From Alloalcanivorax xenomutans (GTDB lineage: Bacteria; Pseudomonadota; Gammaproteobacteria; Pseudomonadales; Alcanivoracaceae), in NCBI RefSeq assembly GCF_900217905.1, contig NZ_OBMO01000012.1, forward strand, positions 62,001-126,000: 64,000 nucleotides of DNA, given 5' to 3'. The number at the start of each line of letters is the position of its first letter. The first letter of the stretch is position 1. This document shows positions 55,894-59,968 of the stretch, piece after piece. The position numbers and the translations under genes are program-made. The notes beneath the pieces are model-generated. The model saw only the letters and a program-made list of their open reading frames with translations. It was not told the DNA's origin and searched no databases.

Positions 55894-56892
55894 TCACCAT
55901 TGCGGTTCTGATTCCGTCCCCTGTTCCTCCGCCGGCGCCGCTTGCCCTTCGGCCTTCGGCGCCGGTCCCGGCACCCGGCTCAGCCCTTCCCCCTTCATGC
56001 GCTGAGTGATGTAGAAATTGCGAAGGAAGGTGTAGCGGTCGCCGATAATGTTGCGCTCCAGGTCAAGCAGATCGGCGCGTAGATCCACCGCGTAAACCGC
56101 GCTGAAGATGAGACGGTCCGTGGTGTCTTCCAGCAAATAGTGAGACAGCCGCATATAGTCTTCCGGCCAGATAGTGGCGGCGTCCCGGACCGTGGACGGG
56201 CCGAACAGCGGCAATACCAGATAAGGACCGGAGTCCACGCCCCAACGCGCCAGCGTCAAGCCCAGATCGGTCTTGTGTTTCGGAATGTCCAGCTCCGACG
56301 CCACGTCGAACAGGCCGGCCAGCCCCAGCGTGGTATTCACCGAGAAGCGGCCGAAATTATCCCGCGCCTGTCCCCAGCGCCACTGGAGCACATTGTTCAA
56401 GCCGCTGCGGAAATCCTGCAGGTTGGCGAAAAAACGCGTGAAGGTATCGTCCAGCCATTGCGGAGTAATGAATCGATAGCCCTTGGCCGCCGGCTTCAGC
56501 GCGTAACGATCCACGAACTCATTGAAGCCGAACATTTTGCGGTTGAAGCCCTCCCAGGGATCGATCTCCTCCCAGTCCATGGCAGGGCCGGCAAAGGGAT
56601 CATCCAGGTCACCGGAACCGGAGGCGGCCCAGTCATCGCCGCCGTCGCCCCAGCCATCATCCTCGGCCGGAGGGCTTTCCCCCCAATCGTCCCCGCCATC
56701 AACAGCGGTGGCATTGGCGGGCAAGGCGTCCGGAGCGTCATCAACGGTGTTTTCCACGGCGCCTTGTTCGGCATCAGCGGTACTCACCGCCTCCGGCGGC
56801 GCCAACGGCGCCCGGGCTTCGCTGTCATCCCGGGGCGTCTGCGCACACCCAACCACCAGGCCAGCGAAAGCCAGCAGAATCCATTTACGCAC
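55894..56892 (-). CDS. mlaA: MlaA (VacJ) outer-membrane lipoprotein with long acidic linker
   Basis: A 332-residue lipoprotein of the Mla pathway, which removes phospholipids from the outer leaflet of the outer membrane. GTG start at 56892 with AGAGGA before it; lipobox LVVGC gives lipid-modified Cys16. The MlaA domain (about 103-310) has WEGFNRKMFGFNEFVDRYAL, RFFANLQDFRSGLNNVLQW, GRFSVNTTLGLAGLFDVASE and GVDSGPYLVLPLFGPSTVRD. Between Cys16 and the domain lies an unusual linker of about 85 residues, rich in Asp, Gly, Trp and Ala (DDGWGDGGDDWAASGSGD), far longer than in E. coli MlaA. Confidence 0.94.
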   Translation of the reverse strand: MRKWILLAFAGLVVGCAQTPRDDSEARAPLAPPEAVSTADAEQGAVENTVDDAPDALPANATAVDGGDDWGESPPAEDDGWGDGGDDWAASGSGDLDDPFAGPAMDWEEIDPWEGFNRKMFGFNEFVDRYALKPAAKGYRFITPQWLDDTFTRFFANLQDFRSGLNNVLQWRWGQARDNFGRFSVNTTLGLAGLFDVASELDIPKHKTDLGLTLARWGVDSGPYLVLPLFGPSTVRDAATIWPEDYMRLSHYLLEDTTDRLIFSAVYAVDLRADLLDLERNIIGDRYTFLRNFYITQRMKGEGLSRVPGPAPKAEGQAAPAEEQGTESEPQW

Positions 56893-57002
56893 AAGCAATC
56901 CTCTGTTCGTTGGTGAGCGCATTATAGGCACGTCCGTGCTATCACTCCCAGGATCTGATCACAGCCCCTTCACCGGGAAGTCACATCGGCCAGGAGCCCG
57001 AT

Positions 57003-57761
57003 TCAGCGTGCTCCCAGGATCACGTCCTTGCCGCGCAGTTGCTCCAACAACTCAACGGCGAAACCATGCAGCGCACTCTGGTCGGCAAAGTTCAACTCTT
57101 CCGCCAGTCTTGTCAACACAGCCTCGCCCTGCTCTTCAGGGCTGGCCTCAATCAATTGCAGCATGCGGGCGGTGGCGGGGTTCAGTTCGGTGAAGCGGAC
57201 CCGATCGTCCCGATCCCGGTGAATAAGCAGCCACACCGGTTCCGCCAGGGGCCGGTCAGGACGATAATCCGGACCAATCCGGTGGACCGGGAAGCGATAT
57301 CCCTGCAGTACATGCAAAGGATTGAGCACCGGCACCCCGGCGAGCAGATCGCCATCGGGATCATAGCCCCGCTGGGGAATCTCCTCGGTGGCGGTATCGA
57401 GGACCACCTCCATCCACTCGTAATGGGCCAGTTCCGCCAGATAAGGCGGGTCCTGGGGATCGGGCTGATACTCCCCGGCCAGGAAAGCAACGAATTCGCC
57501 GGGGATTTGCAGAAAATAGGGAGAATGGCTGCGGTGGCCATGAAAAAAAGCGCGCACCAGAGCCCGCCAGCGGTCTTCCGGCAAGACGCCGTGCAGGACC
57601 GGAAAGCCCTGGCTCAGGATGCCCTGCACATTATTGAAAAAGAGATCGCGGTATACCGCCAGCCGGCGATCCTCCAACCCCTCCGGTGCCGCGTGCCGGT
57701 CCGGGTCGCGCAGATGGGCGGCAAAACGCCGCTGCACGGCAACAAAATCCGGCTCGCTCAT
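57003..57761 (-). CDS. hvfC: HvfC-type RiPP maturation partner (DUF2063)
   Basis: A 252-residue protein with the DUF2063 N-terminal domain: [60 protein letters not shown] and [23 protein letters not shown]2063 proteins partner the MNIO enzyme, helping it recognise the precursor peptide. The ATG at 57761 overlaps the hvfB stop by four bases. The C-terminal part (about 160-252) is a winged-helix-like region with [17 protein letters not shown]. Last gene of the hvfABC cluster. Confidence 0.9.
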
Positions 57762-58621
57762 GCGGAGCTCCTGTCCGGCTTCCGGGCCTGATCTTCCACC
57801 TGCCGCTGGGTATCGCCGATACGGCTCAACTCCGCGAACAGGGTATCGTTGTCGGGAAAGTTGAAATCCCGCTCCAGCAACGTCGGCAGCACCCCAAAGC
57901 GTCGATAAGCGTGTTCCAGCAATGACCACACCGGCTCGATCACGGCGCTGCCGTGGGTATCCACCTTGAGATCCTCGGCCTCGTCGTAGTGACCGGCGAT
58001 ATGCACATAGCAGATCCGCTCGCCGGGCAGGCCATCAATGAAGCTGTACGGGTCGTAACCGTGGTTGATGCCGTTCACATAGGCGTTGTTGACGTCCAGC
58101 AACAGACCGCAATCGGCCTCCTCGAGCACCGCGCGAATGAACTCCAGCTCGGTCATCTCCGCGGGACCGCCGGGTGGCGTGTAATAACTGACGTGTTCAA
58201 TACCAATGGGGCGTTCAAGAAAGTCCTGCACCCGCCGGATACGATCGGCGACGTAACGCACCGCCTCACCGGTAAACGGTATCGGCATCAGATCATAAAG
58301 ATGGCCGCCGTCACTGCAGTAGCTCAAATGTTCGGTATAACAGCGGATTTGATGTTCATCGAGAAACCGTTTGACTGCGGCCAGCAGCTCGAAATCCAGC
58401 GGATGGGGTCCACCCAGGGACAGGCTCAGACCGTGGCAGACGAACGGGAAGCGTTCGGTGAAACGACGGAATTCCCGGCCCAGGCGACCGCCCATGGGGA
58501 TCCAGTTTTCCGGCGCCACCTCCATGAACTGGAACGGCACGGTCTCGCATTGGGAAAGCGGGCCCATCAGGGCCCGCCGTAATCCCAGACCGGTCCCTTC
58601 GACCGGAGTAAGGGCTTTCAT
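57758..58621 (-). CDS. hvfB: HvfB-type MNIO enzyme (DUF692)
   Basis: A 287-residue TIM-barrel multinuclear non-haem iron oxidase. Metal-ligand motifs are in order: [49 protein letters not shown] and [13 protein letters not shown]. Enzymes of this family oxidise Cys of ribosomal peptides to oxazolone/thioamide or thiooxazole groups that bind copper. ATG at 58621 (a GTG at 58624 is also possible). It lies 30 bases after hvfA and overlaps hvfC. Confidence 0.93.
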
Positions 58622-58651
58622 CACGGCACTCAGTCAGGCAGGGGTTGGAGA

Positions 58652-58981
58652 TCAGGCGGCGCCGCCGCACTTGCCTTCGCCACACTTACCTTCGGCGCCT
58701 TTTTCCTTGTCCTCGCCACACTTGCCTTCGGCTTTCTTGTCACCGCCACAGCTGCCTTCCGCTTTCTTGCCGCCACAGCTGCCCTCGGCTTTTTTACCGC
58801 CGCAACGCCCTTCAGCGCCTTTCTCTCCGTGATTGTCAGCAAGTTGATAGCCGGCTCCGAGATCGGAGGCGGCGAAGGGATTTTCAACCGCCTGCGCGGT
58901 CACCGGCAGGGACATCGCCGATGCGACAAAGGCAGCGCCAACGGTGGCCGCCAAAGGATTGAGTTTATTGGTTTTAGCCAT
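58652..58981 (-). CDS. hvfA: HvfA-like RiPP precursor with six EG[KSR]CG motifs
   Basis: A 109-residue precursor. The signal peptide (about 1-31, AAFVASAMSLPVTAQA) sends it to the periplasm. A short linker with NPFAASDLGAGYQLA follows, a leader-like block kept in the family, then a Lys/Gly/Glu-rich core. All six Cys (60, 69, 78, 88, 100, 105) lie in EGRCG, EGSCG, EGSCG, EGKCG, EGKCG and EGKCG. EGKCG Cys are the known targets of HvfB-type enzymes. Spacings are 9, 9, 10, 12 and 5. GGAG stands about nine bases before the ATG. A copper-buffering role is likely by family analogy. Confidence 0.93.
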   Translation of the reverse strand: MAKTNKLNPLAATVGAAFVASAMSLPVTAQAVENPFAASDLGAGYQLADNHGEKGAEGRCGGKKAEGSCGGKKAEGSCGGDKKAEGKCGEDKEKGAEGKCGEGKCGGAA

Positions 58982-59008: not shown

Positions 59009-59064
59009 GTCGAAACACCACCGGGACCCGGAATGGTCCGGTTCATGATTTCGACACTATAGTG
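59009..59064 (-). promoter_or_regulatory. inverted repeats upstream of hvfA
   Basis: GTCGAAA (59009-59015) and TTTCGAC (59049-59055) face each other 33 bases apart, followed by the palindrome CACTATAGTG (59055-59064). They lie 28-83 bases before hvfA and are placed as an operator/promoter pair would be. No sigma or regulator assignment is possible by eye. Confidence 0.4.
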
Positions 59065-59111
59065 ATGCACGGCGGGAGTAAACGTTACAGAGGGATATCA
59101 AAAAAGAGACA

Positions 59112-59197: not shown

Positions 59198-59968
59198 TTA
59201 AACCGGATTATTATAACGTCGGTTCAGCTTGCGCATACCACCGATCCAGCGGTCATAGTCCGCGGTTTTGTTGCGCATGTATTCCAGCACTTCCGGGTGC
59301 GGCAGAACCAGGAAGGTCTCCTCCTGGATCGCTTTCAGGCAAGCCCGCGCCACCGGTTCCGGCTCCATCATGCCATTGATACTGGCGACGCCATCTTCCT
59401 TGCCCTTGGTCATGGCGGTGCGCACCGCCTGCGGGCACAGCACCGATACCTTGATGCCGTCATCGCCATAGGTCAGCGCCAGCCATTCGGCCAGCCCCAC
59501 GGCGGCGTGTTTGGTCACCGCGTAGGGAGCGGATCCCACCTGGGACAGCAGCCCGGCGGCGGAAGCGGTGTTTAGCAAATAGCCGCCGCCACGGGCGGTC
59601 ATTCTCGGCACCAGGTGCCGCGCCGCGTAGACGTGGGCCATGACATTGATGTCCCAGATTCTCTGCCATACGTCGTTGCTCACTTCCGGCCCGCCACGGG
59701 TGGAGATGCCAGCGTTGGAGCAGAACAGATCGATCGGCCCTTCGTTGGCTTCCACCTCGTCGATCAATGCCTGGATCTCACTTTCCTCGGCGACATTGAC
59801 CCGCCGGCCGATACCGCCGATGGCGTCGGCGGTGGCCTGGGCGCCTTCGCCGTCCAAGTCGGCGCAGATGACACGCTTGGCGCCGGCCTCGGCGAAACAC
59901 TCCGCCAGCGCGCGGCCGATACCACCGGCGGCGCCGGTGACCACGACTATCCGGTCTTTAATTTCCAT
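59198..59968 (-). CDS. short-chain dehydrogenase/reductase
   Basis: A 256-residue classical SDR. TGAAGGIGRALAECFAEAGA is the cofactor loop, with ADLDGEG at the end of strand 2 indicating NAD preference; NAG is in LFCSNAGIS; the catalytic Ser-Tyr-Lys are in NTASAAGLLSQVGSAPYAVTKHA. The C-terminal region is long (EPEPVARACLKAIQEETFLV). It heads a run of lipid-related genes on the minus strand but is the last one transcribed. Substrate unknown. Confidence 0.9.
   Translation of the reverse strand: MEIKDRIVVVTGAAGGIGRALAECFAEAGAKRVICADLDGEGAQATADAIGGIGRRVNVAEESEIQALIDEVEANEGPIDLFCSNAGISTRGGPEVSNDVWQRIWDINVMAHVYAARHLVPRMTARGGGYLLNTASAAGLLSQVGSAPYAVTKHAAVGLAEWLALTYGDDGIKVSVLCPQAVRTAMTKGKEDGVASINGMMEPEPVARACLKAIQEETFLVLPHPEVLEYMRNKTADYDRWIGGMRKLNRRYNNPV

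Follow-up and report, generated by a model that had tools for sequence, protein, structure and literature searches.

A captophorin-type hvfABC cluster in Alloalcanivorax xenomutans and an unlinked sigma/anti-sigma/hvfX locus with a similar promoter-like element

The hvfABC locus and its products

The window, i.e. the whole stretch of 64,000 nucleotides of Alloalcanivorax xenomutans DNA that was analysed, carries three adjacent genes, hvfA, hvfB and hvfC (Table 1), of which the last two overlap by 4 nt (ATGA). Profile searches assigned HvfB to the family of model NF003818 (419 bits, cut-off 360) and HvfC to that of NF050145 (306.8 bits, cut-off 142). HvfA matched the HvfA-family domain NF050137 (27.9 bits, cut-off 19.5), and scored 29.5 bits against the HvfA equivalog model NF050188, below its cut-off of 95; it is thus a member of the HvfA family rather than an HvfA equivalog. 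Pfam domains were PF05114 in HvfB (327.5 bits), and PF09836 and PF22106 (NGO1945_C) in HvfC. Furthermore, HvfB resembles PDB entry 3bww (266 bits) and HvfC resembles 3dee (36.9 bits). Coordinates and family models confirmed the original prediction of a signal-peptide precursor with six cysteines, a DUF692 enzyme and a DUF2063 partner, in the order A-B-C with a 4-nt overlap between B and C. The family scores also bore out its assignment to the HvfABC-type RiPP clusters, relatives of which bind copper (PMC12668002, PMC12538549).

Table 1. Coordinates of the genes and other features described in the text. Positions without prefix refer to the window, which lies on contig C30.
Feature	Position	Strand	Contig	Remarks
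MlaA (VacJ) lipoprotein gene	55894-56895	-	C30	PF04333; downstream of hvfC
hvfC	57003..57761	-	C30	DUF2063 + RRE-type partner; 252 aa
hvfB	57758..58624	-	C30	MNIO (DUF692) maturase; 287-288 aa; ATG probably at 58621
hvfA	58652..58981	-	C30	RiPP precursor; 109 aa
Tandem repeat inside hvfA	58706..58801	-	C30	27-30 bp period, about 3 copies
Promoter-like element of hvfA, GTAACGTTTAC-N9-GCATC	59064..59088	-	C30	83 nt before hvfA ATG; conserved before hvfA in relatives
SDR gene	59198-59968	-	C30	upstream of hvfA
ECF sigma gene	L158:5243-5857		C4	204 aa; PF04542, PF08281
Anti-sigma gene (zinc-type, ZAS)	L158:5851-6087		C4	78 aa; PF13490; overlaps sigma gene
hvfX	L158:6158-6853		C4	directly behind anti-sigma gene
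Second MNIO cluster of genome G023	L171:4850-7281	-	G023:C23	bufferin-1 kind: DUF2282 precursor, PF05114, DUF2063, DoxX

HvfC was present in 43 of the 46 genomes of the family Alcanivoracaceae. In all 43 loci hvfB and hvfC lie on one strand and an EGxCG precursor lies upstream, that of L130 being interrupted by N. Hence, the three-gene set does not consist of chance open reading frames. Only a single PF05114 gene, hvfB itself, and a single precursor of the HvfA family (two overlapping matches in one frame) were found in the genome of A. xenomutans. Judged by these sequence features, the locus is a real captophorin (oxazolin-type, EGxCG) cluster hvfABC, of a kind already known. The nearest named relative among the relatives listed is Alloalcanivorax balearicus (L035), with 98% identity in HvfB, which fits the lipid-degrading gammaproteobacterium that had been predicted as host.

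On the downstream side, hvfC is followed by the MlaA (VacJ) gene; a predicted VacJ link of a DUF2063 protein of Alcanivorax borkumensis has been noted before (PMC2954202). The SDR gene upstream of hvfA has an SDR counterpart in genome G029, and many relatives have a gene that by eye is ketoacyl-synthase-like at this place, so that the upstream flank varies within the group.

Scores against other families of the same enzyme superfamily bear on a methanobactin-like or bufferin-1/2 system, which would serve copper uptake or handle other metals. The enzyme scored 29.8 bits against the MbnB model TIGR04159 (cut-off 325) and 239.1 bits against BufB, in both cases under the cut-off, whereas the HvfB and HvfC models were matched above theirs. 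Methanobactin was therefore rejected by the MbnB score and by the identity of the partner protein as HvfC. Bufferin 1 was rejected because the precursor, which has a signal peptide and EGxCG repeats, gave no DUF2282 match at E 1. A system of either kind is very improbable at this locus.

Residues R15, R16, D252 and F253 of HvfB align with R15, R16, D249 and F250 of FonB, for which Arg15, Arg16, Asp249 (the proposed base) and Phe250 have been reported (PMC12668002). The alignment comprised 118 rows, i.e. the window, 77 of 80 named loci and 40 of 43 family loci, leaving out rows with a short automatic translation and including some genomes twice. With these duplicates included, R16, D252 and F253 were conserved in 118 of the 118 rows and R15 in 117. 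Because these positions are conserved, HvfB is placed among the Lys-Cys (EGKCG) MNIOs, where its sequence suggests that it belongs. In the products of the captophorin EGKCG group, Cys is converted to 5-thiooxazole with loss of four hydrogens each and an absorbance at about 305 nm. The 5-thiooxazole structure has been assigned to fontiphorin, gonophorin and oxazolin, with revision of the earlier oxazolin structure (PMC12668002), and a later HvfB paper has the same structure (PMC13419390). The predicted oxazolone/thioamide chemistry is therefore outdated (PMC12668002), while the predicted loss of four hydrogens per Cys stands.

By visual inspection and a Kyte-Doolittle window, HvfA was taken to start with a Sec signal peptide, given its hydrophobic N-terminal stretch and its AQA site. 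The leader is NPFAASDLGAGYQLA; assuming cleavage after AQA, the mature peptide consists of VENPFAASDLGAGYQLADNHGEKG followed by six EGxCG repeats. All six Cys lie within EGxCG, with R, S, S, K, K and K at position x. HvfA thus combines this visually and hydropathically assigned signal peptide with the repeated EGKCG-type motifs of a captophorin precursor. The leader pattern NPF-(3-5)-[LE]xxGY occurred in all 43 family precursors. These contain 243 counted Cys, 240 in EGxCG and three in EAxCG, where the count for L130 is a minimum owing to a run of N. Residue x was K in 173 cases, S in 55, T in eight, R in four, A in two and N in one, and in the genus of the window (g1) Ser exceeded Lys (27 vs 18 of 50). 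These counts are limited to the 43 family loci; the automatic precursor table of the 80 named loci was unreliable, with wrong picks (e.g., other genes at L056, L073 and L083) and 14 loci without a precursor.

The near relatives G018, G019 and G029 (L148, L150, L153) have four Cys in their precursors, compared to six in the HvfA of the window. Together with the tandem repeat inside hvfA, this sequence comparison suggests that the number of Cys rose to six only recently. The hvfA of G023 (L123) has four repeats, all EGSCG, and hence no Lys before Cys; the same genome also carries a second MNIO cluster (Table 1). FonBC takes Ala, Arg and Thr at x but not Phe or Glu (PMC12668002), and the results text of that paper makes no mention of Ser at x. 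The word EGSCG had no match in the main texts of the open-licence literature searched. HvfA offers natural EGSCG and EGRCG substrates for testing the specificity of MNIOs.

hvfX and the sigma/anti-sigma genes

A PF07681 search of the genome found no DoxX gene at the hvfABC locus or elsewhere on contig C30, and the predicted lack of a DoxX gene at the locus was thereby borne out. The three PF07681 genes of the genome are all located on C4 and C14, and a DoxX gene just outside the locus was therefore rejected. The protein encoded on C4 is a full-length HvfX, with 242.1 bits against NF050144 (cut-off 80). The two proteins encoded on C14 scored 28.8 and 49.9 bits when their DoxX-matching parts were compared with the same model, and were rejected as HvfX, being 31.6% and 39.4% identical over some 95 residues. 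HvfX of A. xenomutans is 86-95% identical to that of its three nearest relatives (G019, G018, G029), 75% to that of G028, 59-71% to hvfC-linked copies, and no more than 45% to any other DoxX protein.

The hvfX gene is located beside genes for an ECF sigma factor and an anti-sigma factor, and is preceded by a promoter-like element as found before hvfA. The original prediction that the fourth gene is absent, and the cluster therefore a minimal version, is hence not supported: the gene is missing from the locus and present in the genome. Three-gene loci without DoxX have already been published for fon and mmr (PMC12668002, PMC12538549), so that a DoxX-less locus is not new in itself. The anti-sigma protein scored 65.5 bits against NF052368 (cut-off 50). 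Its residues C4, H31, C35 and C38 form the C4 plus HxxxCxxC arrangement of sigma-E/MseR-type control, and compare with C4, H30, C34 and C37 in meningococcal MseR (published positions only; PMC2893595).

To establish the linkage of hvfX in the family, we compared the places of HvfC, of PF07681 and of matches to the HvfX of A. xenomutans across the 46 genomes, and counted HvfX as 'elsewhere' or 'not found' by matches over or under 200 bits. Among the 43 genomes with HvfC, hvfX was directly behind hvfC in 16 (G002, 3, 5-11, 13, 14, 17, 38-40, 45) and elsewhere in 12 (G000, 16, 18, 19, 25, 28, 29, 34, 35, 42, 43, 44, with linkage unsure in G044, where contigs end). The other 15 had no match over 200 bits (G001, 4, 12, 15, 20-24, 27, 32, 33, 36, 37, 41); in some of these, other DoxX proteins matched weakly, and G041 has a completeness of only 64%. 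In the genus of the window, hvfX was linked in none of the 12 genomes with HvfC, unlinked in six and not found in six. A tree built from 32 DoxX proteins had little resolution, with 15 of 29 inner branches open and three very long rows, and we therefore make no claim on the direction in which hvfX has moved.

A homolog of the sigma factor over 200 bits was present in 37 of the 46 genomes. In all 32 of the sigma loci examined (G001, G004, G012, G015 and G044 were left out), the sigma gene is followed by an open reading frame with HxxxCxxC. In 10 of the 12 genomes with unlinked hvfX, this gene starts no more than 253 nt from the anti-sigma match; the exceptions are G025, with hvfX 2.3 kb downstream, and G044, where the contig ends. 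Across the 43 genomes with HvfC, HvfX was found in 28 of the 36 with the sigma gene and in none of the seven without it. Because eight of the 36 sigma-bearing genomes are without HvfX, this protein is dispensable. One further locus, L170 (G026:C1:982000-998000), holds sigma, anti-sigma, HvfX and MNIO genes within about 11 kb with no HvfC match, and perhaps represents a decayed or differently partnered system.

The promoter-like element before hvfA and hvfX

The sites before hvfA and hvfX read GTAACGTTTACTCCCGCCGTGCATC (59064-59088, minus strand) and GTAACATTCACATCGCCACCGCATC, respectively. Their two blocks are proposed, from sequence, to be the -35 and -10 regions of an ECF-sigma promoter. From these two sites we derived the joint pattern GTAACNTTNAC-N9-GCATC, which they therefore match by construction; it had no third exact match in the 4.35-Mb genome. 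With up to two mismatches there were 21 matches against eight in the reversed control, hardly more than background once the two sites are set aside. The variant GTAAC-N15-GCATC-NN-TA likewise had the same two exact matches only, and seven against three in the control with one mismatch. Over the 46 genomes, GTAACNTTNAC-N9-KCATC gave 30 exact matches in 29 genomes and none in the reversed control. Assigned by coordinates, 28 of these lie before hvfA, one before hvfX (that of A. xenomutans) and one elsewhere (G036:C7). The hvfX sites of G018, G019 and G029 are one base off this long pattern.

The shorter core GTAAC-N15-GCATC was found upstream of 10 of the 12 unlinked hvfX genes, against none of the 16 linked ones (Fisher 5e-6, kinship ignored). 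A recount, in which the anchor skipped G018 and G045 and admitted G026 (no HvfC), gave 9 of 12 and 0 of 15. The unlinked hvfX genes of G028 and G044 had no core upstream, and the linked hvfX of G002 is preceded by a near-match with three mismatches, better than 99% of shuffles.

Before hvfA, the form GTAAC-N15-[GT]CATC, chosen after the sequences had been seen, was present in 35 of the 36 genomes with the sigma gene against one of the seven without it (P 8e-6, kinship ignored). For GTAAC-N15-GCATC this was 30 of 36 against one of seven (P 9e-4, kinship ignored). As all of these P values ignore the kinship of the genomes, they overstate the association. The sigma gene and the element are jointly absent in at least two genera (G020/G021; G032/33/36/37), and perhaps only two or three loss events are involved. 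Exceptions to the association are G027, with a sigma match over residues 5-185 only and a decayed element, and G041 (64% complete), with the element and no sigma gene found.

For 38 of 43 loci, the match in the 300 nt upstream of hvfA was equalled by no more than 1% of mononucleotide-shuffled sequences; G020, G032, G033, G036 and G037 did not pass. As background, 30 of 2,100 tiles (300 nt each) from the 43 loci contained the loose core, true sites included. Among the 80 named loci, 52 had a readable upstream region and six of these had the core, all six from Alcanivorax or Alloalcanivorax by name. Hence, in its core form the element is missing from the more distant relatives examined. The core was not found upstream of the sigma gene in A. 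xenomutans or in the 32 sigma loci examined. In many relatives it lies inside the sigma coding sequence, at about +502 to +511 in the region 4 codons. This is probably a coincidence of the coding sequence, or possibly a start site of the anti-sigma gene within the sigma gene; because of these occurrences, the short core alone is weak evidence.

The two sites could also be operators for another regulator, such as a repressor or an activator that responds to copper or to the redox state. A TATAGT immediately following the hvfA element, which by eye resembles a housekeeping -10, would suit this. However, the presence of the element tracks the sigma gene across genomes. Moreover, the two blocks at fixed spacing, GTAACGTTT-N12-CATC, resemble by eye the neisserial sigma-E promoter, with -35 GTMAGBWTT, a spacer of 12-13 and -10 CGTCTAAH (PMC2893595). 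We consider the operator rather unlikely.

The distribution of the element bears equally on whether hvfABC is self-sufficient, with the unlinked HvfX serving another role and the common element being incidental. Such self-sufficiency would be in line with fon and mmr, where ABC alone yields the modified peptide in E. coli (PMC12668002, PMC12538549), and with the 15 of 43 HvfC-bearing relatives that are without an HvfX match over 200 bits. It fits poorly with a pattern that has no exact copies in the genome other than before hvfA and hvfX, with a core that precedes 10 of 12 unlinked hvfX genes and no linked copy, and with the occurrence of HvfX in sigma-bearing genomes only (28 of 36 vs 0 of 7). 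We therefore regard a self-sufficient cluster as improbable.

A proposed two-locus system and its known counterparts

It is likely, in our view, that the genes form a two-locus captophorin system, consisting of hvfABC and sigma/anti-sigma/hvfX, in which one type of promoter-like element would allow the sigma factor to switch on both loci together. As the same bipartite element precedes hvfABC and hvfX alike, joint switching by the sigma factor encoded on C4 is the most likely explanation. Envelope stress, from copper or oxidation, would release the ECF sigma factor, so that hvfABC and hvfX are transcribed together. The RRE domain of HvfC would hold the leader of HvfA, while HvfB, as an iron enzyme, would oxidise each EGxCG Cys to 5-thiooxazole with loss of four hydrogens. 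The modified HvfA would be exported by Sec, bind copper in the periplasm and thereby presumably protect against copper. HvfX would be the membrane-bound DoxX-type partner, made from the C4 locus and acting in trans.

A more speculative extension, which we hold to be doubtful, is that the captophorin pathway of this family has its own ECF sigma factor with a regulon of essentially two promoters, that hvfX moves in evolution between the operons of this regulon, and that HvfX acts in the sensing circuit, either alongside a role in peptide maturation or in its place. A place in the sensing circuit, for periplasmic copper or thiol state, is suggested by the repeated location of hvfX right behind the sigma and anti-sigma genes.

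EGKCG-type precursors number about 2,000 and occur with MNIO, DUF2063 and DoxX genes in various combinations (PMC12452194). The system is thus of a known and common kind, and by its gene arrangement a trans HvfX behind sigma/anti-sigma genes with a shared element would be a variant of it. In open-licence main texts we found no prior description of this variant in this family, either of the trans HvfX behind sigma/anti-sigma genes or of the shared element; supplementary neighbourhood tables may list it. For gene-neighbourhood surveys of RiPPs this is a trap, since a cluster may seem 'minimal' when its fourth gene is simply encoded at another place, behind seemingly the same promoter. Furthermore, as the genes are already separated in this marine oil-degrading host, it lends itself to testing the role of HvfX and the sigma circuit independently of hvfABC.

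Several known systems share parts of this organisation. Bufferin 1 of Caulobacter has an MNIO, DUF2063 and DoxX proteins, ECF-sigma logic and a GTAAC -35, as here, and is under sigma-F with GTAACC-N16-CGAA (PMC3511200). In contrast to the present system, its precursor belongs to DUF2282 and its sigma regulator to DUF1109. Fontiphorin (fonABC) and mmrABC of Microbulbifer agree with the window in their adjacent A, B and C genes, EGKCG repeats and no DoxX reported at the locus, whereas here hvfX and the sigma genes are present elsewhere in the genome.

The oxazolin system of Haemophilus influenzae, HvfABC plus DoxX, resembles the present one in its A, B, C and DoxX proteins and EGxCG repeats, and its HvfB, HvfC and HvfX family models match the proteins encoded in the A. 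xenomutans genome. Its DoxX cluster is driven by the ECF sigma factor RpoE2 under hypochlorite (PMC7907618). The differences are that here hvfX is unlinked, that HvfA scores under the equivalog cut-off, and that Ser or Arg replaces Lys before Cys in three of the six repeats.

NMB2140-NMB2145 of Neisseria (gonophorin) comprises the same six functions: DoxX, precursor, MNIO, DUF2063, ECF sigma and ZAS anti-sigma. There, a single sigma-E operon contains doxX, three genes that were unknown at the time, rpoE and mseR (PMC3240639, PMC2893595, PMC2954202). This operon is autoregulated, whereas here no core element was found before the sigma gene. Instead of a single operon there are two loci, hvfABC and sigma/anti-sigma/hvfX, with the element before hvfA and before hvfX. 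What in Neisseria is a single sigma-E/DoxX/captophorin operon most likely occurs in A. xenomutans in a form with two loci.
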